A stretch of 36,625 nt of DNA from Lachnospiraceae bacterium. Its GTDB lineage: Bacteria > Bacillota > Clostridia > Lachnospirales > Lachnospiraceae. How positions within the stretch are numbered: position 1 is the stretch's first letter; every line of letters starts with the position of its first letter. This document shows, piece after piece, positions 10,421-31,523 of this stretch. Below the pieces are notes generated by a model. That model was not told where the DNA came from. It ran no database searches and saw only the letters and a list, made by a program, of their open reading frames with translations. A program made the position numbers and the translations under genes. Location: positions 1 to 36,625 of the forward strand of contig JAFQZU010000006.1 of assembly GCA_017405805.1 (NCBI GenBank), read 5' to 3'.

Positions 10421-10424
10421 GTCT

Positions 10425-11345: not shown

Positions 11346-11374
11346 AGTGTCTACCTCCATTACTGGTATTTATA

Positions 11375-11480
11375 TGCTGCAACACTGATTATTATACAAC
11401 AATATGCACAACAAATCACTTGCCCAGGTGTGATTTTTTTACAATTTTACGAGGTACAATGACGCAAGTTGTGCATATTG
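11375..11480 (-). promoter_or_regulatory. Promoter region of iolH with 13-base inverted repeats
   Basis: CAATATGCACAAC at 11400-11412 is repeated in exact inverted form at 11468-11480, with 55 bases between. Inside the interval an AAATCAC/GTGATTT stem (about 11414-11437) is followed on the plus strand by T residues. On the minus strand a TATAAT-like box lies just downstream of the inner repeat, about 45 bases before the iolH start. The ATGCACA half-site resembles the TGCAC core of the LacI operators at 4911-5148, so looping by the same regulator is possible. Confidence 0.5.
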
Positions 11481-11514
11481 AGGTCAAAATACGAAGTTAT
11501 TACAGGACCAGCAA

Positions 11515-12390: not shown

Positions 12391-12425
12391 TAGTATTTTC
12401 TCCTTTGATCAAAATATTGAATGGA

Positions 12426-12496
12426 GGGCCGGAAACGGCCCGTGAAGATTTTTAATATCCCGCGCGGGAAACATGAGAACTTGCATCCCGCGCGGG
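12426..12496 (-). other. G+C-rich hairpins between iolG and iolI
   Basis: GGGCCG-GAAA-CGGCCC at 12426-12441 is a perfect hairpin with a GNRA-type loop on the plus strand. Two identical self-complementary decamers CCCGCGCGGG lie at 12459-12468 and 12487-12496 and can pair with each other around an 18-base loop. No good T-run follows on the minus strand, so RNA stability or processing control is more likely than full termination. Confidence 0.6.
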
Positions 12497-12524
12497 GGGT
12501 AACAGATAGATAATTGGCTTTTTA

Positions 12525-13538
12525 TTATTTCTTATAGAAATCAGGTGTGCCGCCGGTCACGACCTTCTCGGTCTTGCCGGACTTCTGGGAGGCGACAAGT
12601 GCGTCAGCGGTGAGCGCCGCAACATAGCCTTCCCATGCGGAGGAGCCGCCGGTGGTTCCCTTGACAACGTTGTCTACCCAGTCCTGAAGCTCCACGTCGT
12701 AGGAGTCGATGAAGCGAAGGATCCAGTTCTTCTCGATTGCAGTAGCAACCTGGAAGTTGTGTCTTGTGACAGGGAAGGAAGGGCAGGGAAGGTTGATCAC
12801 GCCGTCTTCGCAGACCACTTCACAGTTGATGTCGTAGCCGAAGCCGCAGTTTACGTTGACTTCGAGGATGCAGACGACGCCGCTCTTTGTCTTCATGATC
12901 ATGACCTGGGGATCAGCCAGTCCTTCGTGTGCGTTCTTTGTGGCGCGGGGGAAGATGCACTGAACTTCGTCCCACTCCTCGCCTTCGCCGATCAGCCAGG
13001 GAAGAACGTCGATCTCGTGAATAGCGGTATCTGTGACTGCCATCTCGGTGGTGTAAGCGTCGTCAACGTTCTCAGCGCGGTGTGTGCACTTAAGGATCAT
13101 CGGCTTGCCGTACTCGCCGGACTGGATCATCTCTCTGACCTGGTTGTAACCGCGGTCATAGCGGCGCATGAAGCCAACCTGTACCAGGTGCTTGCCGGAT
13201 GCCATCTCAGCGTCCACGATCTCTTTGCAGTCAGCAGCCGTGGTGGTGAGGGGCTTCTCCGTGAAGACGGGCTTTCCTGCCTTGATGGCGGAAAGGATCG
13301 GTCCCTTATGGAAATTGCCGGGTGTCGTGACGACAACTGCGTCTACATCGGGATCAGCGATCAGTTTGTCAGCATCCGTATAGATCTTGACGCCGCCGAT
13401 CAGATCGGAACAAGCCTTTGCGCCAGCTTCAAAAACGTCACAAACCGCAACAACTTCCACGCCCTGAATCTTGTACTGCAGTCTCTTCGCATGCTCTTTG
13501 CCGATCATACCGCAGCCAACAATACCTACTCTCAACAT
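12525..13538 (-). CDS. iolG: Inositol 2-dehydrogenase IolG (Gfo/Idh/MocA family)
   Basis: The 337-residue product has an N-terminal Rossmann fold (VGIVGCGMIGKEHAKRL), the EKP motif with catalytic Lys95, and the DTAIHEIDVLPWL segment giving Asp170 and His174, the Lys-Asp-His set of inositol dehydrogenases. Length matches IolG (about 340). It oxidises myo-inositol to scyllo-inosose with NAD, the first step of the pathway served by the genes downstream. The ATG at 13538 has an AAAGGAG site. It is the first gene of the minus-strand block that continues with iolI, iolH and the importer. Two copies of a 19-base operator-like sequence lie about 80-130 bases upstream, matching one at the LacI-type gene at 17271. 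A related substrate such as D-chiro-inositol cannot be excluded. Confidence 0.9.
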   Translation of the reverse strand: MLRVGIVGCGMIGKEHAKRLQYKIQGVEVVAVCDVFEAGAKACSDLIGGVKIYTDADKLIADPDVDAVVVTTPGNFHKGPILSAIKAGKPVFTEKPLTTTAADCKEIVDAEMASGKHLVQVGFMRRYDRGYNQVREMIQSGEYGKPMILKCTHRAENVDDAYTTEMAVTDTAIHEIDVLPWLIGEGEEWDEVQCIFPRATKNAHEGLADPQVMIMKTKSGVVCILEVNVNCGFGYDINCEVVCEDGVINLPCPSFPVTRHNFQVATAIEKNWILRFIDSYDVELQDWVDNVVKGTTGGSSAWEGYVAALTADALVASQKSGKTEKVVTGGTPDFYKK

Positions 13539-13618
13539 AGTTTCTTCTCCTTTTTGTGTTGTCCGTCCGGCCTCCCCGCCGGTCTACGGACCGAACTGTA
13601 TAATGTTACCCCTTTTTT

Positions 13619-13669
13619 GCGAGACCGGTATCTCTCGTCCTCTAAAAAATGCGAGACCGGTATCTCTCA
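13619..13669. promoter_or_regulatory. Twin operator-like sites upstream of iolG
   Basis: The stretch GCGAGACCGGTATCTCTC occurs at 13619-13636 and again at 13651-13668, 32 bases apart, close to three helical turns. A third copy (ACCGGTATCTC at 17186-17196) lies against the -35 box of the LacI-type gene at 17271. The remaining parts of the 13539-14006 gap are A+T-rich; I see no second gene there. Confidence 0.75.
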
Positions 13670-14006
13670 CGTGTTTTATGTTATCGGATTCTTCCATTTT
13701 TTTCCATTGACATTTTACCTAAATATCATCATTTCTTTTTATGCAAACTGCATGAGCGCGTTTCCGGCTTGTTCCGGCAGGCGTTTCGGGCCGTTTATTC
13801 TCCTCCTTTCTCCTCCTTTTTTTTCTTGCCGGCGCGCAACAAACAGAGAGGTTACAAACAGAACATTTTAGAGCACATGTGGGTATTCCAAACTCCCGCT
13901 CCGTAATATATACTTGTGTCAACAAGCAAGGGAAACACAGCTGACACAAACAAGACATTCTTCGCCGGCTTTTGAGCCGAGACAGGAAAGGCGGCGCAGG
14001 GCCGGA

Positions 14007-14879
14007 ATGAGTCACGACGTCAGAGAACATCTTTCCATCCACGATGAGAAAGGAATAGTTGAAAGGGGCGAGAGTTCCTTCCATAGTCCCCTTGATTTCG
14101 CGGCAGACAATCTGTTTTACGTCGTCTGGAGCAACCGCTACAAATGCAGCAGTCAGTACGCGGTCAAGCGCGACTGCCTGGACTACTACTCGGTGATCTT
14201 CGTCATAGGCGGGCAGATGGAAGTGTTCTACGAGGGCGAGCGGATCGTCGTCAGGGAGAACGAAGCCGTGCTTCTGGATTTCAGAAGGCCCCACGAGTAC
14301 AGGACGCTGGGCGATCAGCTTGAGAAATGGGAGATGGTCTTTAAGGGCAATGCTTCCGATGCTTATTACAAACTGATCACGGAGCAGTGGGGACACCGCT
14401 TCGAGGTGCGGGGCAGGATGAAGGAAATCCTCCGCAGCCTCATGAAAGAACTGGCAGCCCCCTTCCCTTCGGACCACGTGATCTCCTCGAAGATACATGA
14501 GATGTTCAGCAGCATGATCGAGCAGAAGGCAGTGCGGCTCTCGCCGGCCATACAGGAGGCGATCTCCTATATGTACGCACACTACGGGAGTCCTCTCCAG
14601 ATCAACGAGATCGCAGACCACGCGGCGCTGAGCAGACCGTATTTCTCCAGAAGGTTCACGAAAGAGACCGGTCGTTCGCCATATGATTATCTGGCGCAGA
14701 TCCGGATCAACGCGGCCAAGGAAATGCTTGCGGAACAGGATCTTCCGATCGCTGAGATCGCAGAGCGCTGCGGCTTTACGGGCCCGTCTCACTTCTCCAG
14801 CTTTTTCCGGGAGAAAACGGGCCAGACACCGGCGGGCTTCCGCAAGGTCTTCCGCCTGACGGATGCCGGTTCGAAATGA
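14007..14879 (+). CDS. AraC-family transcriptional regulator
   Basis: From the ATG at 14007 the product has 290 residues: a cupin-like sensing domain (SVIFVIGGQMEVFYEGERIVVRENEAVLLDFRRPHEYRT) and a C-terminal pair of AraC helix-turn-helices (LQINEIADHAALSRPYFSRRFTKETGRSPYDYLAQIR, then IAEIAERCGFTGPSHFSSFFREKTGQTPAGFRK). The frame is open further upstream to an ATG at 13914, but that extension is Arg/Gln-rich and unlike the family, so the internal ATG is preferred although its ribosome site is weak. It is 81 bases upstream of a dehydrogenase and a TIM-barrel gene on the same strand and diverges from iolG. It probably activates that two-gene operon; the ligand may be the sugar or inositol they use. 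Confidence 0.9.
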   Translation: MSHDVREHLSIHDEKGIVERGESSFHSPLDFAADNLFYVVWSNRYKCSSQYAVKRDCLDYYSVIFVIGGQMEVFYEGERIVVRENEAVLLDFRRPHEYRTLGDQLEKWEMVFKGNASDAYYKLITEQWGHRFEVRGRMKEILRSLMKELAAPFPSDHVISSKIHEMFSSMIEQKAVRLSPAIQEAISYMYAHYGSPLQINEIADHAALSRPYFSRRFTKETGRSPYDYLAQIRINAAKEMLAEQDLPIAEIAERCGFTGPSHFSSFFREKTGQTPAGFRKVFRLTDAGSK

Positions 14880-14960: not shown

Positions 14961-16136
14961 ATGATTAACGGATCAAAGGTACTGGATCACTCCATTCGCT
15001 GGGCAATGGTAGGCGGCGGCCTGGGCAGCCAGATCGGCTATATCCACCGCTCTTCCGCGCAGCGCGATGGCAATTTCAAGCTGGTCGCCGGCGCGTTCGA
15101 CATCAACCCTGAGCGCGGCATGGCATTCGGAAGAGATCTGGGCGTAGATCCCGATCGCTGCTACCCCGATTACCAGACCATGTTTGCCGAGGAGGCAAAG
15201 CGCGAAGACGGCATCGAAGCAGTTTCCATCGCAACCCCCAACGGCACGCATTACGCCATCACCAAGGCAGCACTCGAAGCAGGTCTCCACGTAGTCTGCG
15301 AGAAGCCCGTCTGCTTCACCTATGAAGAGGCCGAGGAGCTGGTCGCTCTCGCCAAGGCCAAGAACCGCGTGGTCGGCGTCACCTACGGATACTCCGGACA
15401 TCAGATGATCCAGCAGGCCCGCCAGATGATCAAGAACGGCGACCTGGGCCAGATCCGCGTGATCAACATGAGCTTCGCTTTTGGCGCTTACAATACCAAG
15501 CTCGAAGAGACCAATCCCGCCGCAAAATGGCGCTTCGATCCCTCCAAGGCAGGCATTTCCTTCGCCATGGCCGACGTCGGCACACACCCGCTTTACATCA
15601 TCGAGGCGATGATCCCGGATATGAAGATCGACAAGCTCATGTGCACGAGACAGGCCTTCATCGAGGGCAGACAGCTCGAGGACAACGCCTTCACCATCAT
15701 GGAGCTCGAGGGCACCGAGAACGTGCAGAAGGGCGCGCAGGTCTACTGCTGGTCCAGCTCCATCAACTGCGGCGCACGCCACGGCCACAAGATCCGCGTC
15801 GTGGGCGAGAAGGCATCCATCGAGTGGGACGACGAGAGACCCAATCAGATGACCTATGAGATCGAAGGCGAGCCCGTCCGCATCCTTGAGCGCGGCGCCG
15901 GCTACCTGTATCCCGAAGCACGCGTAGAGGACCGCATCGGCGGCGGCCACGCGGAGGGACTGTTCGAAGCATGGAGCAACCTTTACAGAAGATTTGCCGT
16001 CGCTATGTCCGGCGCGGACAGCGCTGAGTACGGCGATTTCTGGTACCCCAACGTCGAGGCCGGCGCGAACGGCATCAAGTGGCTCGAGAAGTGTGTCGAG
16101 TCCGCTGACAACGGCGCCGTCTGGGTCAAATACTGA
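14961..16136 (+). CDS. Gfo/Idh/MocA-family dehydrogenase, second inositol/sugar type
   Basis: The 391-residue product has the nucleotide-binding start (IRWAMVGGGLGSQIGYIHRSS), the EKP motif with Lys115, and ADVGTHPLYIIEAM supplying Asp205 and His209. All three catalytic positions of the Gfo/Idh/MocA family are thus kept. It is about 50 residues longer than iolG here and only distantly similar, so it is not a recent duplicate. The ATG follows a textbook AAGGAGG site. It is followed after 36 bases by an IolE-like barrel gene and preceded by an AraC regulator. Plausible substrates are another inositol isomer (for example scyllo-inositol) or a sugar 3-dehydrogenase substrate; the sequence alone does not decide. 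Confidence 0.88.
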   Translation: MINGSKVLDHSIRWAMVGGGLGSQIGYIHRSSAQRDGNFKLVAGAFDINPERGMAFGRDLGVDPDRCYPDYQTMFAEEAKREDGIEAVSIATPNGTHYAITKAALEAGLHVVCEKPVCFTYEEAEELVALAKAKNRVVGVTYGYSGHQMIQQARQMIKNGDLGQIRVINMSFAFGAYNTKLEETNPAAKWRFDPSKAGISFAMADVGTHPLYIIEAMIPDMKIDKLMCTRQAFIEGRQLEDNAFTIMELEGTENVQKGAQVYCWSSSINCGARHGHKIRVVGEKASIEWDDERPNQMTYEIEGEPVRILERGAGYLYPEARVEDRIGGGHAEGLFEAWSNLYRRFAVAMSGADSAEYGDFWYPNVEAGANGIKWLEKCVESADNGAVWVKY

Positions 16137-16172
16137 TCATCATCCGAACTGCCATAAAAGGAGGTAAACGAC

Positions 16173-17105
16173 ATGCCTATGCAGATCTGCGGTGCTCCGG
16201 CGAGCTGGGGCGTAGACAATCCCGAGAATCCCTATCTTCCTCACTGGACAAAGGTGCTCTCCGAAGCACATCAGGCAGGATATACTGCCATTGAACTCGG
16301 ACCTTACGGCTACATGCCCATCGACGCCGATGTCGTCGCGGCAGAGCTTGAGAAAAATGAGCTCGCCATCGTTGCCGGCACGATCTTCCACGATCTCGTG
16401 GATCCCGCAAACCAGCCCTCCGTCCTGGAGGCCGTGGACAACATCTGCCGCCTGATCACTGACCCCAGGCTCCCCAAGCTCCCGGTCCTGGAAGGCCAGA
16501 AGTTCCCCACCCCCTACCTGACGGTCATGGACTGGGGACACGACGAGCGCGACTACAACGCAGGTCATCCCGACCGCGCGCCCCGCATGAATGACGAGGA
16601 GTGGAAGCAGTTCATCGGCCACGTCCGCGCTGTATGCGACCGCGCGAACAGCTGGGGCGTCCGTCCCGTGATCCACCCGCACTCCGGCACCTACATCGAG
16701 TACTCCGATGAGATCGCCCGCTTCGTGCAGGACATCCCGTATGACGTCGCAGGCCTTTGCCTGGATACCGGCCATCTGTATTACTGCAAGATGGATCCGG
16801 TCACCTACCTCAAGAAGTATGCTGACGTTCTGGACTACGTACACTTCAAGGACGTCAACCAGAAGGTATATGAATCCGTCATGAACAAGCACATCCGCTT
16901 TTTTGACGGCTGCGGCGAAGGCACGATGTGCCCCGTCGGCACCGGCGCCCTCGACTATCCCGCCATCAAGACGGCCCTCGAGGAGATCGGCTACAGCGGC
17001 TACATCACGATCGAGCAGGAGCGCGATCCCAGGAACCAGGAGACCTCCCTCAGAGACGTCAAAGCCAGCGTGGATTACCTCAAGAGCGTAGGCTACCAGA
17101 TCTGA
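16173..17105 (+). CDS. IolE-like sugar isomerase/dehydratase TIM barrel
   Basis: The 310-residue xylose-isomerase-like barrel opens with QICGAPASWGVDNP, as IolE proteins do. It has the ligand-bearing segments VRPVIHPHSGTYIEY, CLDTGHLYY, DYVHFKDVNQ and YITIEQERDP. GTGALDYPAIKTALEEIGYSGY is the typical IolE-type C-terminal strand. AGGAGG stands 8 bases before the ATG. It is the second gene of the operon with the 14961 dehydrogenase and is followed by a strong terminator. The pair mirrors iolG-iolE (oxidation, then dehydration or isomerisation), suggesting a parallel entry route for a second cyclitol or sugar acid. It differs clearly from the iolE at the window start. Confidence 0.86.
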   Translation: MPMQICGAPASWGVDNPENPYLPHWTKVLSEAHQAGYTAIELGPYGYMPIDADVVAAELEKNELAIVAGTIFHDLVDPANQPSVLEAVDNICRLITDPRLPKLPVLEGQKFPTPYLTVMDWGHDERDYNAGHPDRAPRMNDEEWKQFIGHVRAVCDRANSWGVRPVIHPHSGTYIEYSDEIARFVQDIPYDVAGLCLDTGHLYYCKMDPVTYLKKYADVLDYVHFKDVNQKVYESVMNKHIRFFDGCGEGTMCPVGTGALDYPAIKTALEEIGYSGYITIEQERDPRNQETSLRDVKASVDYLKSVGYQI

Positions 17106-21255: not shown

Positions 21256-22632
21256 TCAAAGCGCAAGACCCATATTCCGCAGATCTTCCACGACCTCGTC
21301 GTACATCTGCTGCCACGCCGGCACGGGCGTGATCGTCTCCATGTCGTACGCCTCGTCGAAAGGACGGCCGGGATTTCCTCCCTCCATCCGGAAGGCGTGC
21401 TCGTACTTATCCAGGAGCTGCAGGACGATCCGGTTCGCTTCGCTCCGCGTCATTTTCATGCGCGCGACGGCTTTGCCGACTTCTCCCATCAGACGGCACT
21501 CCAGGCCGGTCCCGTGAGGAACACGGCCGTTGGCAGCCCCGATCCCCTCGAGATGGCCGCCGCTGACCGTCACGACGATGGAGTTTGCTGCCACTTCATA
21601 GAGCAGTTCCTTCGTCATGCTGCCGCTGGTCGGCCACAGGTCACAGACGATGATGGCCGGCGCATGCTCCGCAAAGGTCTGGCAGAGCACCGACTGCAGC
21701 CACAGGCACCCTCTTGCGGTGGTGGCCACGTCCGTGATGTGGATGGGGTGGCAGAGATGATAGTCCGCGGCGGCAAAAAGGTTAGCCGCCATGATGGAAG
21801 CGATCATGATCATGCAGCTTCCGGGCGCGTCGCCGCCCAGTCCGCCGACCATAGTGCAGGCCAGGGACGCGTTCTTCATCCCGTAATCCAGGGAGCTGGC
21901 TGCCCGCACCAGATTTCCGTTGTCCATGATCAGCTCGTTGAACAGGGCCACCAGATGCGAATCACACGGTCTGAGCCATCTCTCCGAGACGGCCGCAATG
22001 TCTCCGATCTCCGTCACGGCGCTCTCCGCGGCGAGAAGCCCGAGGCCGGGTCTGCCGACCTTGTTCAGGGCTTTATGGAGATACTCCATCTCCTTGCGGA
22101 CCGCAAAGACCTCGGAGGGCTCCCCGTTCTGGACCGGATATCCGTCCACATCTACCAGCGATCCGCAGGTCAGAAGGTCGATGACCGGCTCCTTGGCCAC
22201 GCTCTCGATGATCGGATAGTACAGTCTCTCAGGCGTCGGGCAGCCCGGATTGCCTGCCCAGATGGCCGGCGGGCGCTCGTCCTCGACGCGGCGGGCCACA
22301 AGCGTAAAGGCGTCTTTTCCCTCGCCCATGGTCAGCTCCGTCTTCATGTTCCTAAGGCCCTCGTCGATCTCCTCTTCCGAGAGCTTCATGATCCTGCCGG
22401 TGCTCATGTTGTAGATGCCGGTGCGGATCAGGAGTTCTTTGGCCGCCTGAAACATATTGGCAAAGAGCTCGCTGTCCTCCGGGATCAGTTCCTCCCGATC
22501 CCAGTCAAAGTCATATTCCTCGACAAGATCCATGACGTTTTCCACGATGTAGTCCACGTCCCAGTCGTTTTTGTCGACCTTTTCTCCTGTCTTTCCCCTC
22601 TCATAGAGGGCAAGAAACTGTTTTCTGTCCAT
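21256..22632 (-). CDS. Non-pyrrolysine homologue of monomethylamine methyltransferase MtmB
   Basis: The 458-residue product has the exact length of archaeal MtmB (monomethylamine:corrinoid methyltransferase). By eye it aligns end to end: GRPGLGLL against GRPGMGV-Pyl, NELIMD, DYHLCHPIHI, TGLECRLMGEVGKAVA, FDEAYDMETITPVPAWQQMYD. In methanogens pyrrolysine 202 is encoded by an in-frame TAG; here the aligned residue is Leu200, codon CTC at 22035-22033, and there is no internal stop. Two acidic residues I recall lining the pyrrolysine pocket (Glu229, Glu259) also appear replaced. The gene lies 10 bases after a BMP-type lipoprotein gene in an ABC-import operon. No corrinoid protein, methylcobamide:acceptor methyltransferase or pyl gene is in the window. 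It may demethylate an imported amine onto a corrinoid protein encoded elsewhere, or have lost that chemistry. Confidence 0.85.
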   Translation of the reverse strand: MDRKQFLALYERGKTGEKVDKNDWDVDYIVENVMDLVEEYDFDWDREELIPEDSELFANMFQAAKELLIRTGIYNMSTGRIMKLSEEEIDEGLRNMKTELTMGEGKDAFTLVARRVEDERPPAIWAGNPGCPTPERLYYPIIESVAKEPVIDLLTCGSLVDVDGYPVQNGEPSEVFAVRKEMEYLHKALNKVGRPGLGLLAAESAVTEIGDIAAVSERWLRPCDSHLVALFNELIMDNGNLVRAASSLDYGMKNASLACTMVGGLGGDAPGSCMIMIASIMAANLFAAADYHLCHPIHITDVATTARGCLWLQSVLCQTFAEHAPAIIVCDLWPTSGSMTKELLYEVAANSIVVTVSGGHLEGIGAANGRVPHGTGLECRLMGEVGKAVARMKMTRSEANRIVLQLLDKYEHAFRMEGGNPGRPFDEAYDMETITPVPAWQQMYDEVVEDLRNMGLAL

Positions 22633-22642: not shown

Positions 22643-23965
22643 TTATTCCGCTGCTTTCCAGGATGTGGAAACGCCTTCGACGAAGAAGTTCTGGAAGATG
22701 ATATCCTCATCGGGCATCACTTCGCCTTCCGCCACCAGGACATTTCCTTCATTGTCCTTGATCTCTCCGCCAAATACCTTCACTTCGCCGGATTCGATCT
22801 TCGCCTTCAGATCGTTGACCTGTGTGACGACCTCTTCCGGTACGAAAGCGGCAAAATCAGAGAGCTTGGAGCAGTCGCCGCCCCAGTAATAGAAGTCATT
22901 GGCCGTCGCGGTTCCTTCTGCAGCGTTGATCATGATGTTCTTGAAGATGGGTGCGAAGTTCCACATGTGGGAAACAAATACCGCGTTCGGTGCGAGGGCG
23001 GACATATCGTTGTGATAGCCGACCACGAATGCGCCGTTCTTCTCGCAGGTCTCGGGAATTGCGGGGGAGGAAGCTTCCATGCCCATGTACTTGATCCCGG
23101 CGTCGATCAGAGACTGCGCACACTGGGTCTCCTTGTCGATATCATACCAGGTGTCGGCGGATGCAACGCGCACCGTGGCTTCCGGATTGGCGTACTTTGC
23201 CCCCAGCGCATAGGCATTGATCGCCGTACGCACGGAGAACTCGTTGGCGGAAGCGGAGAAGCCCAGCTCGGGATTGGTCTCCTGAGAGAGGAGCTCACTG
23301 GCGTAACCGGCAAGGAACATGCCCTCGTAGCTGCGGATCTCGTAGCCGATCATGTTGTCGACCTTGTTGCCCCACTGCGCAAACATAACTTCGGGATGCG
23401 CCGCGGCGATCTCCGGCAGGAAGGACGCATAGCCCGTGGAACAGGCAAGGATCAGATTGCATCCCTCGTTGACCAGTTCCTCGGCTGCCGTCTGGGAGGC
23501 AGCCTGATTGTAGTCGTCGACGTTTTCAAGCAGGATCAGGTTCTCTTCGGGAATTCCCAGTTCCTTCATGGCCGCGACGATGCTCTCGTGATTGGCCTGG
23601 CACCAGCCGCCGTCATTGATATAGTAGGACTCCATCTCGCCGATCTTGAAGTTCGAGAAATCCGTCCCTTCCGCGGGCATCTGGGCCATTTTGTCCTCAC
23701 CGATCATGTTGAGGCCGGCAGCAGCCGTCTCTGCGGGCGCCGTCTCCTCTGCGGCGGTCTCCTCAGCCGCGGTCTCCTCTGCTGCTGTCTCCTCTGCTGC
23801 TGTCTCCTCTTCGGGTGCAGCCTCTTCCTCGGCAGGGGCTTCTTCAGCCTGCTCCTCGGCAGCCGCCTGCTCCTGGGCGTCCGACTCGGTCTCGCTGGCA
23901 CATCCGGCCAGTGCAGCACATGCGAGCAGTGCCGCAAGGCAAACGGAAATCAGTTTCTTTTTCAT
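22643..23965 (-). CDS. BMP-family ABC substrate-binding lipoprotein
   Basis: The 440-residue product has a lipoprotein signal with lipobox LAGC (Cys22), a long acidic tether (residues 23-83) containing Ala-Ala-Glu-Glu-Thr repeats, and a basic-membrane-protein (PnrA/Med-like) binding domain. In that domain, YINDGGWCQANHESIVAAMKELG, ENVDDYNQAASQTAAEELVNEGCNLILACSTGYASF and RSYEGMFLAGYASELLSQE are typical. Characterised family members bind purine nucleosides or related small molecules; the ligand here may differ. The ATG has a good AAAGGAG site. It follows two BMP-type permease genes and an ATPase gene, and is followed after 10 bases by the MtmB-like gene, suggesting that the transporter delivers the methyltransferase substrate. 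Confidence 0.93.
   Translation of the reverse strand: MKKKLISVCLAALLACAALAGCASETESDAQEQAAAEEQAEEAPAEEEAAPEEETAAEETAAEETAAEETAAEETAPAETAAAGLNMIGEDKMAQMPAEGTDFSNFKIGEMESYYINDGGWCQANHESIVAAMKELGIPEENLILLENVDDYNQAASQTAAEELVNEGCNLILACSTGYASFLPEIAAAHPEVMFAQWGNKVDNMIGYEIRSYEGMFLAGYASELLSQETNPELGFSASANEFSVRTAINAYALGAKYANPEATVRVASADTWYDIDKETQCAQSLIDAGIKYMGMEASSPAIPETCEKNGAFVVGYHNDMSALAPNAVFVSHMWNFAPIFKNIMINAAEGTATANDFYYWGGDCSKLSDFAAFVPEEVVTQVNDLKAKIESGEVKVFGGEIKDNEGNVLVAEGEVMPDEDIIFQNFFVEGVSTSWKAAE
23726..23812 (-). repeat. 15-base coding repeat (Ala-Ala-Glu-Glu-Thr) in the lipoprotein tether
   Basis: Residues 52-80 of the BMP lipoprotein repeat a five-residue unit, EETAA, with five close copies before the pattern breaks up. 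The two copies near 23775-23805 are identical at DNA level, so the array could change length by slippage in 15-base steps without breaking the frame. Confidence 0.8.
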
Positions 23966-24014: not shown

Positions 24015-24947
24015 CTATCTCTTCTCCCGGTCATACGGGATGGTCAGCGCCGCGGGGGCACTGGACCGCCTTCCGCCAAAATTACCGGTCGTAAAGATCA
24101 ATACAATGATGGTCGCGATATAGGGGAGCGCCGCAAAGACCTGGGACGGCACACTGGGAAACAATGTCTGCACATCGATCCCGATGATACTGATCGCTCC
24201 GAAGAGCATGGCGCCAAAGGTCGCCGTAAGCGGATTCCACGCCGAGAATACGACCAGGGCCACCGCGATCCAGCCCTTTCCGCTCGTCATGCCGTCGCTC
24301 CAGAAATTGGTGTAGGCAAGGGACACGACCGCCCCGCCGACCGCCGTCATGATACTTCCGAAGATGACATACGCGTAGCGCAGCGCATAGACATTATAGC
24401 CTGCGGAATCCAGCGCCGCGGGGTTTTCTCCCAGGGCGCGCAGGATCATGCCCGCGCGTGTTTTATATATGTAGATCATGGACAGCGGAATGATCAGATA
24501 GATCAGGTAAACCAGAATGTTCTGGCTAAAGAGCGAGGGGCCCAGCACCGGGATCCGGGACAGGACCGGGATCGGAATCGGCTCGAAGGCCAGATCCGCG
24601 TTCACGCCGGCGACGCTCTTTCCCAAAAAGCCGGACAGGCCGGTGCCGAAGGTCAGCATCGCCATGCCGCAGACCGTCTGGTCCGCCTGCATGGTGACCG
24701 TCAGGAAGGAAAAGACCAGACCCAGCGCCGCGCCGACCAGGATCACCACGCACATGGCCAGAAACAGGTTTTGCTGGTAAACCGCGACCATATATCCGGA
24801 AACGGCTCCCATCAGCATGATCCCCTCAAGGCCGAGGTTCATGACCCCTGCCCGCTGGGAAAAGATCTCGCCGACCGCCGCGTAGAGGACTGTCGCAGCG
24901 TAGACCACCGCCGTGGATATGATGGAAATAAGCAATGCTGTAGACAT
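24015..24947 (-). CDS. BMP-type ABC transporter permease (second)
   Basis: The 310-residue hydrophobic product shows the NupQ/YufQ-like pattern: an N-terminal helix, AVGEIFSQRAGVMNLGLEGIMLMGAVSGY (residues 24-52), FSFLTVTMQADQTVCGMAMLTFGTGLSGF in the middle, and GKGWIAVALVVFSAWNPLTATFGAMLFG near the C-terminus, the region that meets the ATPase. The ribosome site is weak (GGGGAT), consistent with translational coupling to the preceding permease gene, which ends 19 bases upstream. It forms the membrane channel with the 24967-26034 product. Confidence 0.92.
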   Translation of the reverse strand: MSTALLISIISTAVVYAATVLYAAVGEIFSQRAGVMNLGLEGIMLMGAVSGYMVAVYQQNLFLAMCVVILVGAALGLVFSFLTVTMQADQTVCGMAMLTFGTGLSGFLGKSVAGVNADLAFEPIPIPVLSRIPVLGPSLFSQNILVYLIYLIIPLSMIYIYKTRAGMILRALGENPAALDSAGYNVYALRYAYVIFGSIMTAVGGAVVSLAYTNFWSDGMTSGKGWIAVALVVFSAWNPLTATFGAMLFGAISIIGIDVQTLFPSVPSQVFAALPYIATIIVLIFTTGNFGGRRSSAPAALTIPYDREKR

Positions 24948-24966: not shown

Positions 24967-26034
24967 TCAGGCGCGCTCCTTGCTTTTTACGCCCGCAAAT
25001 TCATACCGGTTGAAAAACTCTCCCGCGACCACGAACAGCATGATGCTGCCCTGGATCATGGTGGATACCTGGGACGGCACCCCGGTCAGCTGCACGGCGA
25101 CAGAAGAGATCTGCAGCGCACCAAAAAAGAAGCCGACCAGAGGAACGACCAGCGGGTTCAGCCCCGCCAGAAAGGCAATGACGATGCCCGTATAACCGGC
25201 GCCGTCCGGCAGATTGGCCTGCACCCTGTGCAGGATCCCCGCGACCTGCGCAAATCCCGCAAGTCCGGCGATGGCGCCGCTCATGCATAGTGTCAGGAGC
25301 GTCGCGGTCCGCACGGACATACCGGCGTACTGCGCCGCCCGCGGATTCTGCCGGATGACCTCCATCTTGTATCCCCACTTCGTCTTTGTGTGGAACAGAT
25401 ACATGAGCACCGCGATGAGAAGTACGATGACCAGGACGGAGCTGACCCCTGTGGAGCCGAGGTCCGGGAGCCAGTATTTTTCCTTGATCGCCTTGGTCTG
25501 CGCGACCATCTGTCCCGGCTCCTTCCAGGGCCCGTACACGAGATAATCCATCGCGTACAGGAAAACGTAGTTGAGCATCATGGTCAGGATCGTCTCGTTC
25601 ACGCCCCACTGCGCCTTGGGAAAGGCTGCGATCAGCGCCGCCAGGGCGCCGCCGAGCATGGCGATCACGAACATGCACAGGATCTTAAAGACGGGCGGCA
25701 TGACCGGCCCGAACAGTGCAAATCCCGCGCAGAGGAGGGCCCCCAGGGCATACTGTCCGTCCGCGCCGATATTGTTCAGATTCATCCTGTATCCGAAAGT
25801 CACGGCAAGACCTGTCAGCATCAGGGGGATCCCCGCCTCGATACTGCGGGACAGGCCGCCCGTTGATCCGACCGTGCTTATCATTTTTCCGTAGACGGCG
25901 ATCGGCTCATGCCCCATAAGCGCCAGAAACAGCGCACAGAAGGCAAGCGCAGCCAGAACGGATATGACCGGCGTCATGACCCGCCGCAGGGCGGAAACAG
26001 AGGTCCTTTTCCGGAACCGCAGATATCTGCTCAT
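24967..26034 (-). CDS. BMP-type ABC transporter permease (first)
   Basis: The 355-residue product starts at the ATG at 26034 (MSRYLRFRKRTSVSALRR). GGGAGG lies 7 bases upstream and the ATG overlaps the ATPase stop codon by 4 bases; the frame upstream to 26127 lies inside the ATPase gene and is not used. It has about nine membrane segments. Family marks are VTFGYRMNLNNIGADGQYALGALLCAGF, MMLNYVFLYAMDYLVYGPWK and PDGAGYTGIVIAFLAGLNPLVVPLVGFFFGAL, as in nucleoside-type BMP importers. Its partner permease follows 19 bases later. Tight overlaps show a single transcription and translation unit. Confidence 0.93.
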   Translation of the reverse strand: MSRYLRFRKRTSVSALRRVMTPVISVLAALAFCALFLALMGHEPIAVYGKMISTVGSTGGLSRSIEAGIPLMLTGLAVTFGYRMNLNNIGADGQYALGALLCAGFALFGPVMPPVFKILCMFVIAMLGGALAALIAAFPKAQWGVNETILTMMLNYVFLYAMDYLVYGPWKEPGQMVAQTKAIKEKYWLPDLGSTGVSSVLVIVLLIAVLMYLFHTKTKWGYKMEVIRQNPRAAQYAGMSVRTATLLTLCMSGAIAGLAGFAQVAGILHRVQANLPDGAGYTGIVIAFLAGLNPLVVPLVGFFFGALQISSVAVQLTGVPSQVSTMIQGSIMLFVVAGEFFNRYEFAGVKSKERA

Positions 26035-27575
26035 ACTGTTTCCTCCCGTTCTCCGGACATCATCCGGCCGATCTCCTTCAAATCCGTCTCGCCCGCCGCG
26101 CGGATACCCATCAGTTCCCCGTCGCACAGGACGCCGATCCGGTCACACATGGAAAATATCTCCTCCAGCTCCTCCGAAATAAAGACAATGGCCGTCCCCT
26201 GCCGGCTCTGCTCCCGCAGGATCCCGCGGATCGATTCCGCGGCGCCGATATCCAGGCCGCGGACGGGATAGGCCGCGACGATCAGGCGGGGTTTTCCCGA
26301 GACCTCACGCGCGAAAAGGAGCTTCTGCTGATTGCCGCCCGACATCAGGCCGACCGGCAGATCCAGGCCGCCGTGACGTATATCATACCTTGCCGCATAC
26401 TCTGCGGCGTCGGCATGCATGGCCTTCTCCTGCAGGATCCCGTTCCTGCTGTACCGCTCCGAATCGCTCTTTTTCAAAATTACGTTCTGCACAAAGGACA
26501 GCTCCGGCACAAGCCCGGTCTGCAGGCGGTCCTCCGGGATCAGCGCGATCCCCTCCCGGATATGCTCTTTGACAGAAGCTTTTGACAGTTCTTTTCCGCT
26601 GAGGGTAAGACTGCCCTCCGTGACCGGCCGGAGTCCGGCTATGACCTCCGAAAGTTCCCTCTGGCCGTTGCCCGCGACGCCTGCGATCCCGAAGATCTCT
26701 CCCGCGCGGACCGAAAGACTGACGCCCTTCAGTGCGGGAAGACCGCGGTCATTCAGGGCAGAGACATTCTCCATGACGAAGATCTCTTCTCCCAGTCTTC
26801 CCTGATCGCCGCGCTCCGCGTCCTCCGTGGTCTGCTGCGGCAGCGTCCGTTCGCCGACGACGGCGCTGGTCAGGCGCGCAACGGTCGCCTCCGAAGCAGG
26901 CATGGTGTCCTCGACCATCCCGTTCTTGAGGACCGTGATCCGGTCGGCATTGGTCATGACCTCGTTCATCTTGTGGGAGATCACGATCACTGCTTTCCCG
27001 CTGTCCGCCATCCTGCGGAGCGTATCGAACATGCTCTGCGCTTCCTGCGGCGTGAGGACGGCGGAAGGCTCGTCCAGGATCAGTACCTCCGCTCCCTGAT
27101 GCAGGAGCTTGACGATCTCCACGCGCTGCTGCTCTCCGACCGAGAGCTGCCACACATAAGCTTCCGGCGAGACCTGCAGGTTATACTGCGAGGAGCACTC
27201 CCGGATCTCCTTCTCCATCTCGTCCCGATGAAGGAAGAAGGTCTTCTTTCCTGAATATAAAAAGACATTCTCCGCCACCGTCAGCGTGGGAATCAGTCGA
27301 AAGTGCTGATGCACCATTCCGATTCCCAGCGCTACGGCATCCTTGGGCGAATGAATGTCTCTATGTTTTCCTTTATATATGATCTCTCCCCCGTCCGGCG
27401 CGTAGATTCCGGTGAGGATGTTCATGAGCGTACTTTTGCCGGCCCCGTTTTCTCCCAGAAGCGCATGGATCTCGCCGGGATATACAGAAAGACTGACATC
27501 CCGGTTCGCGGTGACAGAACCGAATGTCTTTGTAATGTGCTTCATCTCAAGGACGGGACTCTTTTTTACTTCCAT
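26031..27575 (-). CDS. BMP-type ABC transporter double ATPase
   Basis: The 514-residue product contains two ABC domains. The first has Walker A GENGAGKST, the BMP-type IGMVHQHFRLIPTLTVAENVFL Q-loop region, signature LSVGEQQRVEIVK and Walker B LILDEPSAVLTPQE. The second has GVAGNGQRE in place of a normal Walker A, IPEDRLQTGLVPELSF, and MSGGNQQKLLFARE. This is the NupO/YufO type of importer ATPase. The ATG has an AAGGGA site. It is the first gene of the operon ATPase-permease-permease-lipoprotein-MtmB homologue and lies 126 bases downstream of the sigma-54 activator gene on the same strand. Confidence 0.94.
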   Translation of the reverse strand: MEVKKSPVLEMKHITKTFGSVTANRDVSLSVYPGEIHALLGENGAGKSTLMNILTGIYAPDGGEIIYKGKHRDIHSPKDAVALGIGMVHQHFRLIPTLTVAENVFLYSGKKTFFLHRDEMEKEIRECSSQYNLQVSPEAYVWQLSVGEQQRVEIVKLLHQGAEVLILDEPSAVLTPQEAQSMFDTLRRMADSGKAVIVISHKMNEVMTNADRITVLKNGMVEDTMPASEATVARLTSAVVGERTLPQQTTEDAERGDQGRLGEEIFVMENVSALNDRGLPALKGVSLSVRAGEIFGIAGVAGNGQRELSEVIAGLRPVTEGSLTLSGKELSKASVKEHIREGIALIPEDRLQTGLVPELSFVQNVILKKSDSERYSRNGILQEKAMHADAAEYAARYDIRHGGLDLPVGLMSGGNQQKLLFAREVSGKPRLIVAAYPVRGLDIGAAESIRGILREQSRQGTAIVFISEELEEIFSMCDRIGVLCDGELMGIRAAGETDLKEIGRMMSGEREETV

Positions 27576-27627: not shown

Positions 27628-27656
27628 ATTATACCTTGTTTACTACATGAAAGATA
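27628..27656 (-). promoter_or_regulatory. Possible promoter of the BMP importer/MtmB-like operon
   Basis: On the minus strand TATAAT (27633-27628) lies 17 bases from TATCTT (27656-27651), about 55 bases upstream of the ATPase ATG. The -35 is poor. The operon may also be reached by read-through from the sigma-54 activator gene. Confidence 0.4.
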
Positions 27657-27701: not shown

Positions 27702-29126
27702 TTATTTTTTCTTATCTCCGCTCCTGGACAGGCCAAGCTTCTCCATTTTCTTGTAGAAAGTCACCCTGTGGATCCCAAGCTCTTCCGCGCTCCTTGAGAT
27801 ATTGCCGCTGTTTCTGCGCAGTGCTTCCCGGAGGATCTCTCTCTCCGATTCGCACATAAGGCTCTCGAGACTCCTTCCGCCCGTGCCTTCCGAAAAGGTG
27901 TGGCCGGCCGGGAACAGCCGGACTGAGGAGATGATATTTCCTTTCCGCATGGCGTAGCTGCGGGAAATGACATTTTGCAGCTCCCGGATATTTCCAGGCC
28001 ACTGATACCTGGCGAGTTTGCTTCTGGCCGAAGGCGTAATGCGCACGGCCGTGTGATTGTCCCGGTTGAGGTTCTCCAGAAAAGCGTCGATGTAGTCGTC
28101 CAGATCCTCCATGCGCTGCCTCAGCGGCGGGAGGTAGAGCGGAATGACGTTGAGCCTGTAGTACAGATCCTCGCGAAACCGCTTTTCCTTGACGGCAAGC
28201 GGCAGGTTCTGGTTGGTCGCGGCGATGATGCGCACGTCCACGGGGATCGTCTTTGTCCCGCCCACGTGCTCCACTTCGCCCTGCTGCAGCACACGAAGGA
28301 GCTTTGCCTGCATGGGGAGCGGCATATCTCCGATCTCGTCCAGAAAGAGCGTCCCGCCGTCAGCCAGTTCGAACTTTCCCTTCTTCCCGTACCGGGACGC
28401 CCCCGTAAAGGCGCCCGCGTCGTAGCCGAAAAGCTCCGACTCCAGCAGCTCCGAGGGAATGGCGGCGCAGTTCACGTGGATCAGGGGTTTGCCCTTTCGT
28501 TTTCCCGCGTAATGGATGGCGTTGGCGAATACCTCTTTGCCCGTCCCCGTCTCTCCCTGGATCAATACGGGAAAATCGTTGTTGAGCGTCCGCAGGGCCG
28601 TATTTTTGGCGGCCAGGATCTTCTGGGAGTGGCCCAGGATATTCTGAAAGGAGTAGCGCTCGGCGGAGAGGCGGATCAGCTCGTCTTTGTAGTAGGAAAG
28701 TTCGTCGTATATGTCGTTCAGGGACGAGGAGAGGCGGAGGGTCTCCCGCACGAATTTGACCTGCCCCACGCCGGCCACGGGCTTCCCGTTCAGCGAGACG
28801 TTGGAGCGGTTGACGATGACATGGCGCTCCCCGTCGCGATACTGCTTCAGGGACGCCCTGTGTATCACGTTGTGCTCCGCTTCGTAATAGGGATTCTGCG
28901 CGGCCTCCCGCATTTTGGAAGTGTCGATGACCGTCTCGACGGGCACGCCGAGGAGTGAACGGGGATCCCGGTTCAGATAATCCGCATACGCCTTATTGAT
29001 GTAGGCTATATTTCCGTTCCGGTCCACGACCAGAAACCCGTCATCCGAGCTCTCGAGGCACCCGTAGAAGGCCTCCAGCAGATCTTCCGGGGACAAAGTT
29101 GTGGGGATTGGATGCGTATATTCCAT
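27702..29126 (-). CDS. Sigma-54-dependent transcriptional activator with PAS domain
   Basis: From the preferred ATG at 29126 the product has 474 residues; a GTG at 29135 is possible but the AGAGGTG site fits the ATG. Residues about 15-120 form a PAS sensor (YGCLESSDDGFLVVDRNGNIAYINKAYADYL). The AAA+ domain follows with Walker A GETGTGKE, the sigma-54 contact loop GAFTGA, Walker B GGTLFLDEIGD and the RFREDLYYRLNVIPL segment. A Fis-type helix-turn-helix (NISRSAEELGIHRVTFYKKMEKLG) ends it. There is no receiver domain, so it senses a ligand directly through PAS. It lies between the BMP/MtmB-like operon and the divergent crotonase operon, whose promoter is a consensus -24/-12 site; that operon is its most likely target. 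Confidence 0.95.
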   Translation of the reverse strand: MEYTHPIPTTLSPEDLLEAFYGCLESSDDGFLVVDRNGNIAYINKAYADYLNRDPRSLLGVPVETVIDTSKMREAAQNPYYEAEHNVIHRASLKQYRDGERHVIVNRSNVSLNGKPVAGVGQVKFVRETLRLSSSLNDIYDELSYYKDELIRLSAERYSFQNILGHSQKILAAKNTALRTLNNDFPVLIQGETGTGKEVFANAIHYAGKRKGKPLIHVNCAAIPSELLESELFGYDAGAFTGASRYGKKGKFELADGGTLFLDEIGDMPLPMQAKLLRVLQQGEVEHVGGTKTIPVDVRIIAATNQNLPLAVKEKRFREDLYYRLNVIPLYLPPLRQRMEDLDDYIDAFLENLNRDNHTAVRITPSARSKLARYQWPGNIRELQNVISRSYAMRKGNIISSVRLFPAGHTFSEGTGGRSLESLMCESEREILREALRRNSGNISRSAEELGIHRVTFYKKMEKLGLSRSGDKKK

Positions 29127-29157
29127 GCTGCTCACCTCTTATCTCTTCCGAATGTGT

Positions 29158-29360: not shown

Positions 29361-29376
29361 TGGCACATTACTTGCT
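29361..29376 (+). promoter_or_regulatory. Sigma-54 (-24/-12) promoter of the crotonase operon
   Basis: TGGCAC at 29361-29366 is followed after exactly five bases by TTGCT (29372-29376), the full sigma-54 consensus with GG and GC in register. It lies about 75 bases upstream of the crotonase ATG and faces that operon. A sigma-54 activator gene is divergent next door. Confidence 0.9.
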
Positions 29377-29449
29377 TTTATAAGGGCAGAAAGTTTATTT
29401 GGGCCGGACATGCGTAAACAGTCCTGGGGGACAAAGAAAGGATGGAAAT

Positions 29450-30214
29450 ATGAGTTATCTGGAGAAGAAAAGAGAAGGGGCCGTCGTGACGATCACCATC
29501 AATCGCCCGGAAGTACTCAACGCGCTGGACGAAGACGTCCTGCAGGAACTGCGGGATACCTTTGTGGAACTCGATGGTGACGAGGATGTGAAAGTCATTA
29601 TCCTGACGGGTGTAAAGCGCGCTTTTGTCGCGGGCGCGGACATCTCCGTGATGCAGAAAATGACGCCGGAGGAGGCGCAGGCTTATTCCAGACTGGGACA
29701 GAGCGTCTTCGACTGCATCGAGCAGGTGCGCCCCGTGACCATCGCCGCCGTCAACGGTTTTGCCCTGGGCGGCGGATGTGAACTCGCCATGTCCTGCGAT
29801 ATCCGCGTGGCGGCAGCCTCGGCTAAACTTGCCATTCCTGAGACATCACTCGGCGTATTTCCCGGTTTTGCCGGCACACAGCGCCTTCCCCGCCTCGTGG
29901 GACTCGGCATCGCGAAAGAAATGCTGGCGACGGCCGGGATGATCTCGGCGCAGAGGGCGTACGAGGTCGGTCTTGTCAATCACGTCGTGGAGAATGAGCA
30001 GCTCCTTCCCTTCTGTATGGAGCTGGCCGGGAAGATCACAAAGAACAGCTGCAAGGCGATTGCCGCAGGAAAGCGCCTGATGACGGTCGGTATGGAGATG
30101 CCGTTCGACCGCGCCATCGAGCTCGAGGCAGCCCAGTTCGGCGTAACCTTCTCCACCTATGACCAGAAGGAAGGGATGACCGCCTTTTTGGAGAAGAGAC
30201 CGCCAAAATTCTGA
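29450..30214 (+). CDS. Enoyl-CoA hydratase/isomerase family protein (crotonase)
   Basis: The 254-residue product is a crotonase with both catalytic acids: Glu111 in ALGGGCELAMSCD and Glu131 in LAIPETSLGVFPGFAGTQRL. The oxyanion-hole segment AFVAGADISVM is also present. It should add or remove water across an enoyl-CoA double bond. The ATG at 29450 has an AAGGATG site; the longer frame from 29399 runs into the promoter leader. It is the first gene of a three-gene operon with a class III CoA-transferase and an acyl-CoA dehydrogenase behind a sigma-54 promoter. Together they suit reductive processing of a beta-hydroxy acid. The set parallels CaiD-CaiB-CaiA in function, but the sequences are not close enough to call it carnitine-specific. 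Confidence 0.93.
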   Translation: MSYLEKKREGAVVTITINRPEVLNALDEDVLQELRDTFVELDGDEDVKVIILTGVKRAFVAGADISVMQKMTPEEAQAYSRLGQSVFDCIEQVRPVTIAAVNGFALGGGCELAMSCDIRVAAASAKLAIPETSLGVFPGFAGTQRLPRLVGLGIAKEMLATAGMISAQRAYEVGLVNHVVENEQLLPFCMELAGKITKNSCKAIAAGKRLMTVGMEMPFDRAIELEAAQFGVTFSTYDQKEGMTAFLEKRPPKF

Positions 30215-30285
30215 GATCTGCTGCCGAACGCCGGTACAGCATGGAAACGTCACTGCACAACGCTTGTTTATAAGGAGGAATTCAA

Positions 30286-31503
30286 ATGAAACCGGATATC
30301 TTAAAAGGAATAAGAGTCGTTGATTTTACCACCTACGTCGCGGCACCGGCGGCGACCCGGATCATGGCGGACTGGGGCGCGGATGTCATCAAAGTCGAAG
30401 CGCCCGGAGGAGACCTGTACCGCGGCTACGGCGCACAGATGGATTCCCCGATCGACGAGGATAAGAATCCGATCTATTTATTGAAAAACTGCAATAAAAA
30501 GGGATTGGGCCTGAACCTGAAGAACCCCGAAGGCATGGAAGCCATGCACAAGCTGATCGCGAGCGCGGAGATCTTCGTGACCAATGTGCGCATGAAATCC
30601 CTGAAGAACCTTGGCCTGGACTACGAGACCCTTCACGCAAAATATCCGAAGCTGGTATACGGCTTCTGCGGCGGATACGGCCTCTACGGCGAAGAGAGCG
30701 GCCGGCCCGGCTTTGATATCGTTACATTCTGGGCGAGAGGGGGCATGATGGCCGATCTTCCCCCGATCGGTCATCCCCCCATCTCCATTCCTTCCGGCGT
30801 CGGTGACAACGCCACCGGCCTGGCTCTCCTTGGCGGATGCATGGCTGCCCTGATCAAGGCAAGGGCGACCGGAATGGGCGAGATGGTCGTCGCTTCCCTG
30901 TACAATACGGCGATCTATGTCAGCGACCTGATGATCACTTCCACCCAGTTCAACGACAAGTTCCCCAAATCCCGCTATGCCGTCGGACACCCGCTCTCCA
31001 ACACCTATCAGACAAAGGACGGCGAGTGGTTTGCCTTCGCCATGCTGCAGTATGAGAAGATGTTCCCGAAGCTCTGCAAGGTGCTCGGACTGGATCAGTA
31101 TGCCGAAGATGAGCGCTACTGCACGCTCAAGACGGTGAAGACCGAGAATCATGTGGAGGAATTCTGCAAGATCCTCGAAGAAGCCATGGCCAAGTATGAT
31201 TCGGCCTACATCACGAAGGAATTCTCCGCGAATGACCTGACCTTTGAGCGCTGCCACCACTTCTCGGAGCTCTCCTCCGACAAGCAGGCGCTGGAGAACC
31301 ACTACCTGAAGGAATACACCTTTAAGGACGGCTCCACGGTGCAGCTTCCCGCCGACCCGGTACAGTTCATGAGCAATGAGATCGTGGATATCGACCCGGC
31401 TCCGGCCGTCGGAGAACACAATGACGAGATCCTGGCGGGCCTTGGCTACTCCGCCGCGCAGATTGCGGCTATGATGGAGAGCGGCGCCATCGTCGACAAA
31501 TAA
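30286..31503 (+). CDS. Class III (CaiB/BaiF family) CoA-transferase
   Basis: The 405-residue product has the family's N-terminal Rossmann-like part (LKGIRVVDFTTYVAAPAATRIMADWGADVIKVEAPGGD), the LNLKNPEG motif, and catalytic Asp174 in GVGDNATGLALLGG. It moves CoA between an acyl-CoA donor and a carboxylic acid without ATP. By eye it looks closer to the 2-hydroxyacid/aryl-acid transferases of clostridia (FldA/HadA type) than to carnitine CaiB, although the length equals E. coli CaiB. AAGGAGG precedes the ATG. The gap after the crotonase gene is 71 bases and the acyl-CoA dehydrogenase gene follows after 20, giving one operon. Confidence 0.93.
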   Translation: MKPDILKGIRVVDFTTYVAAPAATRIMADWGADVIKVEAPGGDLYRGYGAQMDSPIDEDKNPIYLLKNCNKKGLGLNLKNPEGMEAMHKLIASAEIFVTNVRMKSLKNLGLDYETLHAKYPKLVYGFCGGYGLYGEESGRPGFDIVTFWARGGMMADLPPIGHPPISIPSGVGDNATGLALLGGCMAALIKARATGMGEMVVASLYNTAIYVSDLMITSTQFNDKFPKSRYAVGHPLSNTYQTKDGEWFAFAMLQYEKMFPKLCKVLGLDQYAEDERYCTLKTVKTENHVEEFCKILEEAMAKYDSAYITKEFSANDLTFERCHHFSELSSDKQALENHYLKEYTFKDGSTVQLPADPVQFMSNEIVDIDPAPAVGEHNDEILAGLGYSAAQIAAMMESGAIVDK

Positions 31504-31523
31504 GATAAGGAGGAGGACTTAAA

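Follow-up and report, generated by a model that had tools for sequence, protein, structure and literature searches.

The window analysed here is a stretch of 36,625 nucleotides from a Lachnospiraceae bacterium (GenBank assembly GCA_017405805.1, contig JAFQZU010000006.1, positions 1–36,625). The gene in question encodes a homologue of the monomethylamine methyltransferase MtmB that carries leucine where MtmB carries pyrrolysine, and it is the last of a five-gene minus-strand operon in which it is preceded by genes for an ATP-binding cassette (ABC) ATPase, two permeases and a BMP-type lipoprotein. The features of the operon are listed below in order of transcription, with the evidence for each assignment in brackets.

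27628–27633, minus strand: putative promoter-like hexamer TATAAT, in the 126-base gap before the ATPase gene (sequence).
26031–27575, minus strand: ABC ATPase with two ATP-binding domains, first gene of the operon (PF00005 in two stretches, 171.2 bits).
24967–26127, minus strand: ABC permease 2, BPD_transp_2 (PF02653, 127.9 bits from residue 96), translation of which probably begins at an internal ATG near 26034.
24015–24947, minus strand: ABC permease 1, BPD_transp_2 (PF02653, 100.6 bits).
22643–23965, minus strand: BMP/PnrA-type substrate-binding lipoprotein, separated by 10 bases from the methyltransferase gene that follows (PF02608, 119 bits).
21256–22632, minus strand: non-pyrrolysine MtmB-family methyltransferase of 458 amino acids, last gene of the operon (PF05369, 1l2q, fold match).
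22033–22035, minus strand: codon CTC for Leu200, in the column of MtmB pyrrolysine 202 (1l2q alignment; clade alignment).

On the minus strand, positions 21256–22632 form a single open frame of 458 amino acids plus a stop. The initial annotation had placed the gene correctly but left its strand unstated, and the plus-strand reading of the same interval gives an unrelated protein. MtmB (PF05369) was the sole family matched in a Pfam search (328.8 bits against a cut-off of 25; residues 9–456 over profile positions 6–450 of 450), the MttB family profile being unmatched, and phmmer aligned residues 8–457 with the MtmB structure 1l2q at an E-value of 2.9e-66. An AlphaFold2 model built from an alignment of 28 sequences (mean predicted local distance difference test score, pLDDT, 94.2) matched 1nth, 1l2q and 1tv2 with template modelling (TM) scores of 0.95–0.96 at 31% identity, compared with 0.57 for 7xcl, the best value for MttB, and 0.50–0.53 for MtgB (9yce). 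The protein has the length and fold of MtmB (1l2q, 1nth) and aligns with it over its full length, which bears out its earlier description as a full-length MtmB-family protein without pyrrolysine. With the non-pyrrolysine MttB superfamily (MtgB, COG5598), whose members are methyl donors to corrinoid proteins with quaternary-amine substrates, it has in common a pyrrolysine-free TIM barrel and a remote structural similarity.

Leu200 lies in the context GRPGLGL-L, in which GRPGLGL begins at residue 193, and aligns opposite the modified residue X202 of 1l2q in the phmmer alignment; the column chosen in the initial annotation for the pyrrolysine was the right one. The gene contains no in-frame TAG, which rules out an MtmB with a hidden TAG codon. 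A C-terminal model of PylS gave no match above its cut-off in the organism's own draft genome (G000, 84% complete), and in only one of 19 genomes with an MtmB hit, the TAG genome G050, was the cut-off exceeded. The leucine-for-pyrrolysine protein of the MtmB family is real and not a product of chance.

Related loci were collected by scanning named genomes for two peptide patterns, a procedure biased to close relatives, which gave 67 loci and, with the window, 68 loci covering 987 kb (hereafter the window clade). One of them (L150) was too short a fragment to be aligned, leaving 67 aligned members. A quick tree of 112 rows, from which alignments of less than 300 residues were excluded and in which several non-TAG rows were long-branched, placed the window clade and the TAG clade each on one side of a branch with a Shimodaira–Hasegawa approximate likelihood-ratio (SH-aLRT) value of 100; a tree of family members with and without TAG codons had been foreseen in the initial annotation. 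In this tree the window clade spans Bacillota, Chloroflexota, Spirochaetota, Planctomycetota and proteobacterial lineages.

In MtmB the residues Glu229, Glu259, Gln333 and Tyr335 surround the pyrrolysine, and the first three line its site. At the columns Pyl202/E229/E259/Q333/Y335, all 12 TAG proteins have X/E/E/Q/Y. The window clade instead has Leu200, Leu227, Leu257 and Asp331 fixed in 67 of 67 aligned members, with tryptophan (37) or tyrosine (30) in the Y335 column, while the residues of the other non-TAG clades vary at these positions. Because the three residues that line the pyrrolysine site are replaced as well, a different substrate is likely, as had been argued before from the loss of pyrrolysine. 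The window clade looks like a group with one function and a fixed pocket of its own, predicted to be hydrophobic where that of MtmB is acidic and to have gained one new aspartate.

A non-pyrrolysine MtmB homologue from Methanococcoides methylutens Q3c, MtqB, was published in March 2026 (PMC13044021). MtqB acts on tetramethylammonium (37 nmol/min/mg), choline (42 nmol/min/mg) and, weakly, methylamine (11 nmol/min/mg), and methyl transfer to free cob(I)alamin was demonstrated. The earlier premise that no non-pyrrolysine member of the family had ever been characterised is therefore outdated. MtqB and the window protein both belong to the non-pyrrolysine MtmB family; by description, they differ in that MtqB is archaeal and adjoins its corrinoid gene, whereas the window protein is bacterial and occurs with a purine-type ABC importer. 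In the same paper's tree of 1,061 sequences the remaining non-pyrrolysine enzymes are labelled as of unknown function (PMC13044021). Another bacterial non-pyrrolysine protein of the family, Ga0180325_111810 of 'Ca. Formimonas warabiya', is strongly induced by dichloromethane and has about 30% identity to other family members (PMC9768040).

The closest solved relatives of the BMP-type protein were AtzT (6pi5, E 5e-36) and 3s99 (E 2.6e-31). AtzT was purified with guanine in its site and has dissociation constants (KD) of 110 nM for guanine and 2.5 µM for adenine, and adenine was modelled in the site of 3s99 (PMC6834077). Both proteins come from other bacteria, AtzT adjoins atrazine genes, and the binding protein of the window differs at some of the binding residues. 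When the AtzT binding positions were transferred by hand mapping from the printed alignment, the ring-sandwich positions Tyr45 and Trp194 proved to be aromatic in all 27 BMP proteins of the clade (24 Trp and 3 Phe at the former, 27 Trp at the latter), Ser97 was kept in 27 of 27 and Asn218 was replaced by glutamate in 27 of 27. The glutamate fixed in the binding protein and the aspartate fixed in the enzyme would together suit a cationic methylpurine.

BMP genes lie within 5 kb of the methyltransferase gene in 26 of the 68 clade loci. In two of the clade's loci (L114 and L131) the methyltransferase gene precedes the transporter genes instead of following them, and since the order has changed, the linkage of gene and transporter outlives rearrangement. 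Four more loci (L121, L122, L130 and L133) have genes for energy-coupling factor (ECF)-type transporters. A different membrane protein, designated TRANS2, is encoded within 5 kb in 27 of the 68 loci; it is a conserved protein of about 520 amino acids whose gene directly follows the MtmB-like gene (11444–12997 in L105, and 27 further loci), and by sequence it matched nothing in Pfam, nothing in NCBIfam at 1e-10 and none of the PDB sequences.

In 10 of the 68 clade loci the gene or its transporter operon has an adenine enzyme as its neighbour (adenine deaminase in eight, adenine phosphoribosyltransferase in two more), the marker labels being BLAST matches to reference proteins of at least 80 bits, with identity down to 25% for some deaminases. 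In four Blautia loci (L099, L101, L106 and L107) the deaminase gene is the first of the transporter operon. In Robinsoniella peoriensis (L105) and in a genome of the Oscillospiraceae (L137) it stands divergently next to the methyltransferase gene, and in one of the Eubacteriaceae (L117) it comes after TRANS2. The Anaerolineales genome L126 has it in a run of genes for a corrinoid protein, the MtmB-like protein, adenine deaminase and xanthine dehydrogenase (XDH)-like subunits. The phosphoribosyltransferase gene is the leading one of the transporter operon in both of its loci, L098 and L118. All eight deaminases passed the NCBIfam equivalog cut-off of TIGR01178 (518.8–628 against 472.5) and both phosphoribosyltransferases that of TIGR01090, the enzymes of L105 and L098 being scored via the identical copies L024 and L019. 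Every match to either enzyme in the 987 kb adjoins the gene or operon, and the other markers are further XDH-like genes of L126. At the rate of 11 adenine deaminases above cut-off in 26 genomes, about 0.12 such genes would be expected in 987 kb; the Poisson probability of at least eight is about 1e-12, and that of at least five, with related loci merged, 2e-7. Across the relatives, though not at the window's own locus, the genetic linkage to purine enzymes thus exceeds chance. The window clade is a real and conserved non-pyrrolysine MtmB clade of gut-type anaerobes, and its genetic link to purine uptake and adenine metabolism is consistent.

The other non-TAG clades were examined in a phylum sample of 398 genomes, 28 of which had an MtmB match; neighbourhoods were taken from 19 non-TAG and eight TAG genomes of this sample, together with G050 and G291. 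Matches that covered no more than a fragment, as in G641 and over 23 positions in G774, were discarded, and G516 and G498 offered only broken or partial genes or short contigs. A purine marker lay within 5 kb in 13 of 19 non-TAG genomes compared with none of nine TAG genomes (10 loci; Fisher's test, 0.0008); when the genomes with a PucR marker only (G516, G589 and G653) were removed, the counts were 10 of 19 and none of nine (0.0098). The markers were XDH subunits, amidohydrolases resembling guanine or 8-oxoguanine deaminases, and the regulator PucR, whose domains were confirmed in four. Six sampled non-TAG genomes had no such marker (G498, G532, G642, G739, G768 and G771), and a control set of 18 reactivase or corrinoid loci (319 kb) contained one. 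Measured against curated cut-offs, XdhA scored above the threshold in L163 and L032, as did 8-oxoguanine deaminase in L155 and L166; three proteins fell short, namely an XDH-like subunit (L126), a guanine deaminase-like protein (L032) and an amidohydrolase (L031).

In these other non-TAG clades a corrinoid protein is encoded within 5 kb in all 31 loci (29 from the phylum sample and two of G291), and a methyl-tetrahydrofolate:corrinoid methyltransferase (MeTr-like) in seven. One locus (L155, 7552–12907) has a run of genes for a GntR regulator, a corrinoid protein, the MtmB-like protein, 8-oxoguanine deaminase and MeTr, with a BMP gene next (13205–14347), apparently a complete cassette of the pathway proposed below. 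In L031 a cobalamin riboswitch (11476–11664, minus strand, 97.4 bits) stands directly upstream of corrinoid and MtmB-like genes with XDH-like neighbours, and a second one lies at 14167–14347; three Rfam searches of 22 sources found cobalamin riboswitches in this locus only and no riboswitch in the window. Genome G564 has both a TAG MtmB gene beside a corrinoid protein gene and a non-TAG MtmB gene beside purine genes (L179, L184). In G768 (L161, 6123–10122) a transporter gene that appears by eye to be BCCT-like is followed by genes for a corrinoid protein and a non-TAG MtmB, a candidate quaternary-amine relative.

The initial annotation had named the absence of any corrinoid protein and reactivase gene from the rest of the genome as a refuting condition, and in the organism's own draft genome this condition holds by half. 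A RACo/RamA-type reactivase is present there (G000:C29, 79665–80372, 224.7 bits), and no stand-alone corrinoid protein was found in that assembly, which is 84% complete; the sole corrinoid domain found there sits in a frame of 873 amino acids that we took for MetH. At family level the reactivase occurred in 15 of 15 genomes with an MtmB match and was absent from the one searched without, and a stand-alone corrinoid protein occurred in 14 of the 15. Within the genus, the reactivase was present in five of five genomes with the gene compared with one of nine without (selected for completeness out of 57), and the stand-alone corrinoid protein in four of five compared with one of eight; each of the other four genus genomes with the gene has both. 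In 65 of the 68 clade loci no corrinoid gene lies beside the methyltransferase gene, and in L130 the order is reactivase, corrinoid protein, MtmB-like protein and ECF transporter.

In L189, L190 and L192 the corrinoid protein gene adjoins the reactivase gene, with a DUF2284 gene, and in L033, from the organism's own draft genome, the reactivase lies beside DUF2284 and cobamide-synthesis-like genes. DUF2284 genes beside the reactivase were located at 9124–9666 in L033, 6064–6621 in L034, 13662–14222 in L035, 6961–7503 in L189 and 6963–7499 in L190, and PF10050 (DUF2284) was confirmed in L033 and L035. The DUF2284 protein is possibly an unrecognised partner of corrinoid reactivation.

With about even confidence we propose that the enzyme removes an N-methyl group from a methylated purine in a corrinoid-dependent reaction, with adenine as the probable product, by a scheme whose substrate, methyl position, leaving group and methyl acceptor we infer. 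The BMP-type ABC transporter would import the substrate, which is most likely adenine or an adenine nucleoside in methylated form. The MtmB-fold enzyme would hold the purine where MtmB holds the pyrrolysine–methylamine adduct, and Co(I) of a separate corrinoid protein would attack the N-methyl carbon, with the purine departing as a neutral heteroaromatic base; because of this leaving group, pyrrolysine would not be needed. Adenine would then be salvaged by adenine phosphoribosyltransferase or deaminated by adenine deaminase and passed to XDH-like enzymes, while the methyl group would pass from the corrinoid protein to tetrahydrofolate via a MeTr-like or UroD-like methyltransferase and the RACo/RamA-type reactivase would keep the cobalt reduced. 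A broader and tentative reading, with somewhat less than even confidence, is that corrinoid-dependent anaerobic purine demethylation is widespread and much of the non-pyrrolysine MtmB family purine-specific, the window clade releasing adenine from a cationic methyladenine and sister clades releasing guanine or xanthine.

Several results weigh against the demethylation of a purine. No purine-catabolism gene neighbours the methyltransferase gene in 58 of the 68 clade loci, the window included. A simple near/far count in the window clade gave five markers within 5 kb and nine beyond (p 0.17), a non-significant result because the operon heads lie just past about 5 kb, and the S2 near/far test (47 against 11, p 0.018) was only moderate. 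Adenine deaminase was above cut-off in none of five genus genomes with the gene and in two of nine without; in this lineage adenine would therefore need salvage. AtzT Asn220 and Phe98 are not retained in the clade BMP proteins, the nearest NCBIfam transporter models are for vitamin B6 and score far under their cut-off, and the ECF component of L130 belongs to PF09819, whose family name refers to cobalt transport. The weak model of TRANS2 (pLDDT 57.6) belongs to the UraA/SLC26 superfamily, with SLC26 anion carriers first and UraA eighth in Foldseek; because the model is weak and SLC26 carriers rank first, TRANS2 says little about purines. The failure to find a stand-alone corrinoid protein in the 84% complete draft genome counts on the same side.

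Among the alternatives, a quaternary-amine methyltransferase similar to MtqB is improbable; its substrate would be tetramethylammonium, choline or some other N-methyl cation, and the purine genes nearby would be coincidental. This alternative could appeal to MtqB as the only characterised non-pyrrolysine MtmB (PMC13044021), to the shared fold, and to the BCCT-like transporter of L161. In the tree, however, that locus is not part of the window clade, and beside the genes of this clade we recognised no transporter for betaine or choline. The co-transcribed binding protein is nearest to purine binders, and 10 of the 68 loci have an adjoining adenine enzyme. The quaternary-amine substrate suggested earlier by analogy with MttB finds no support in this context either, where the neighbouring genes indicate purines. 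Similarly improbable is a route that starts with neighbouring deaminases releasing methylamine from N6-methyladenine or N2-methylguanine, after which the enzyme would demethylate this methylamine without pyrrolysine. All the methylamine-activating residues are replaced, the neighbouring deaminases pass the adenine deaminase equivalog cut-off, 60 of the 68 loci have no such deaminase nearby, and the adenine phosphoribosyltransferase of two operons fits adenine as the product; the adenine deaminase AdeC of Escherichia coli, moreover, is inactive on N6-methyladenine (PMC13296781). Precedents for deamination do exist, from N6-methyladenine to methylamine and from dimethylguanine to dimethylamine (PMC13296781, PMC13054789), namely Bh0637 and Bsu06560, which release methylamine from N6-methyladenine (cited in PMC13296781), and NdmH, which takes methylated purine to methylamine or dimethylamine (PMC13054789). 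Guanine-type deaminases encoded near other clades are members of a similar superfamily, and the low methylamine activity of MtqB points the same way (PMC13044021).

A rather unlikely alternative is that the substrate is a different planar heterocycle with an N-methyl group, for example N-methylnicotinate, N-methylnicotinamide, a pyrimidine methylated on nitrogen or a base resembling a vitamin. BMP and ECF transporters carry vitamins too, as the B6 models and the PF09819 component of L130 recall, and the molybdenum hydroxylases near other clades are not necessarily xanthine dehydrogenases (the L126 subunit scored 642.9, the PucD cut-off being 783.65). Against this, adenine is the substrate of both adenine deaminase and adenine phosphoribosyltransferase, and guanine or adenine occupies the site of the closest solved binding proteins (PMC6834077). 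That methyltransferase activity has been lost and the protein is a sensor or has another role is very unlikely. The stand-alone corrinoid protein not found in the draft genome and the 65 clade loci without an adjacent corrinoid gene would fit such a loss, but Leu200, Leu227, Leu257, Asp331 and many other residues are strictly kept across several phyla, the reactivase is present in every searched family and genus genome with the gene, and a corrinoid protein directly adjoins in L126 and L130.

Among the papers listed by literature searches confined to open-licence articles, we found none on a corrinoid route of purine demethylation, and nothing linking a corrinoid methyltransferase to methylxanthine or MtmB to xanthine dehydrogenase. 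The family is thus known and one member of it characterised, and methylpurines as a substrate class are apparently unreported in the literature searched. If the proposal of purine demethylation is correct, anaerobes would own an oxygen-free means of demethylating purines, in bacteria of the gut and rumen methylated nucleobases would be connected with one-carbon metabolism, and a substrate class would be available for a large family whose functions are, in print, unknown except for MtqB (PMC13044021). It would also bear on why MtmB needs pyrrolysine, with which a good heteroaromatic leaving group would dispense. On the broader reading, anaerobes would harvest one-carbon units and bases from methylated RNA, DNA or purines in the diet, and the pyrrolysine enzymes would form a single specialised branch, heterocycles being the substrates of the family's other branches. 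Culturable hosts exist in the window clade, among them Bilifractor porci and Lactonifactor longoviformis.

Outside the operon lies a regulatory gene:

27702–29135, minus strand: PrdR-like sigma-54 activator gene.

A sigma-54 type -24/-12 element, TGGCACATTACTTGCT, matches exactly at 29361–29376 on the plus strand, just before the crotonase-like, CaiB-like and acyl-CoA dehydrogenase genes (29399–32663). A scan allowing at most two mismatches gave 18 matches against 17.1 expected, so that only the single exact match is of note. The PrdR-like activator was considered as a regulator of the methyltransferase operon and set aside, the exact match fronting the divergent crotonase operon; the crotonase, CaiB and acyl-CoA dehydrogenase genes are probably a separate acyl-CoA operon with its own activator. 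Elsewhere in the window, 826–13538 and 14961–17105 hold what we take to be genes for inositol catabolism (iolB-, iolD-, iolG- and iolE/iolI-like) and sugar ABC transport, and 33808–36395 (minus strand) presumably holds adjoining galK- and galT-like genes.

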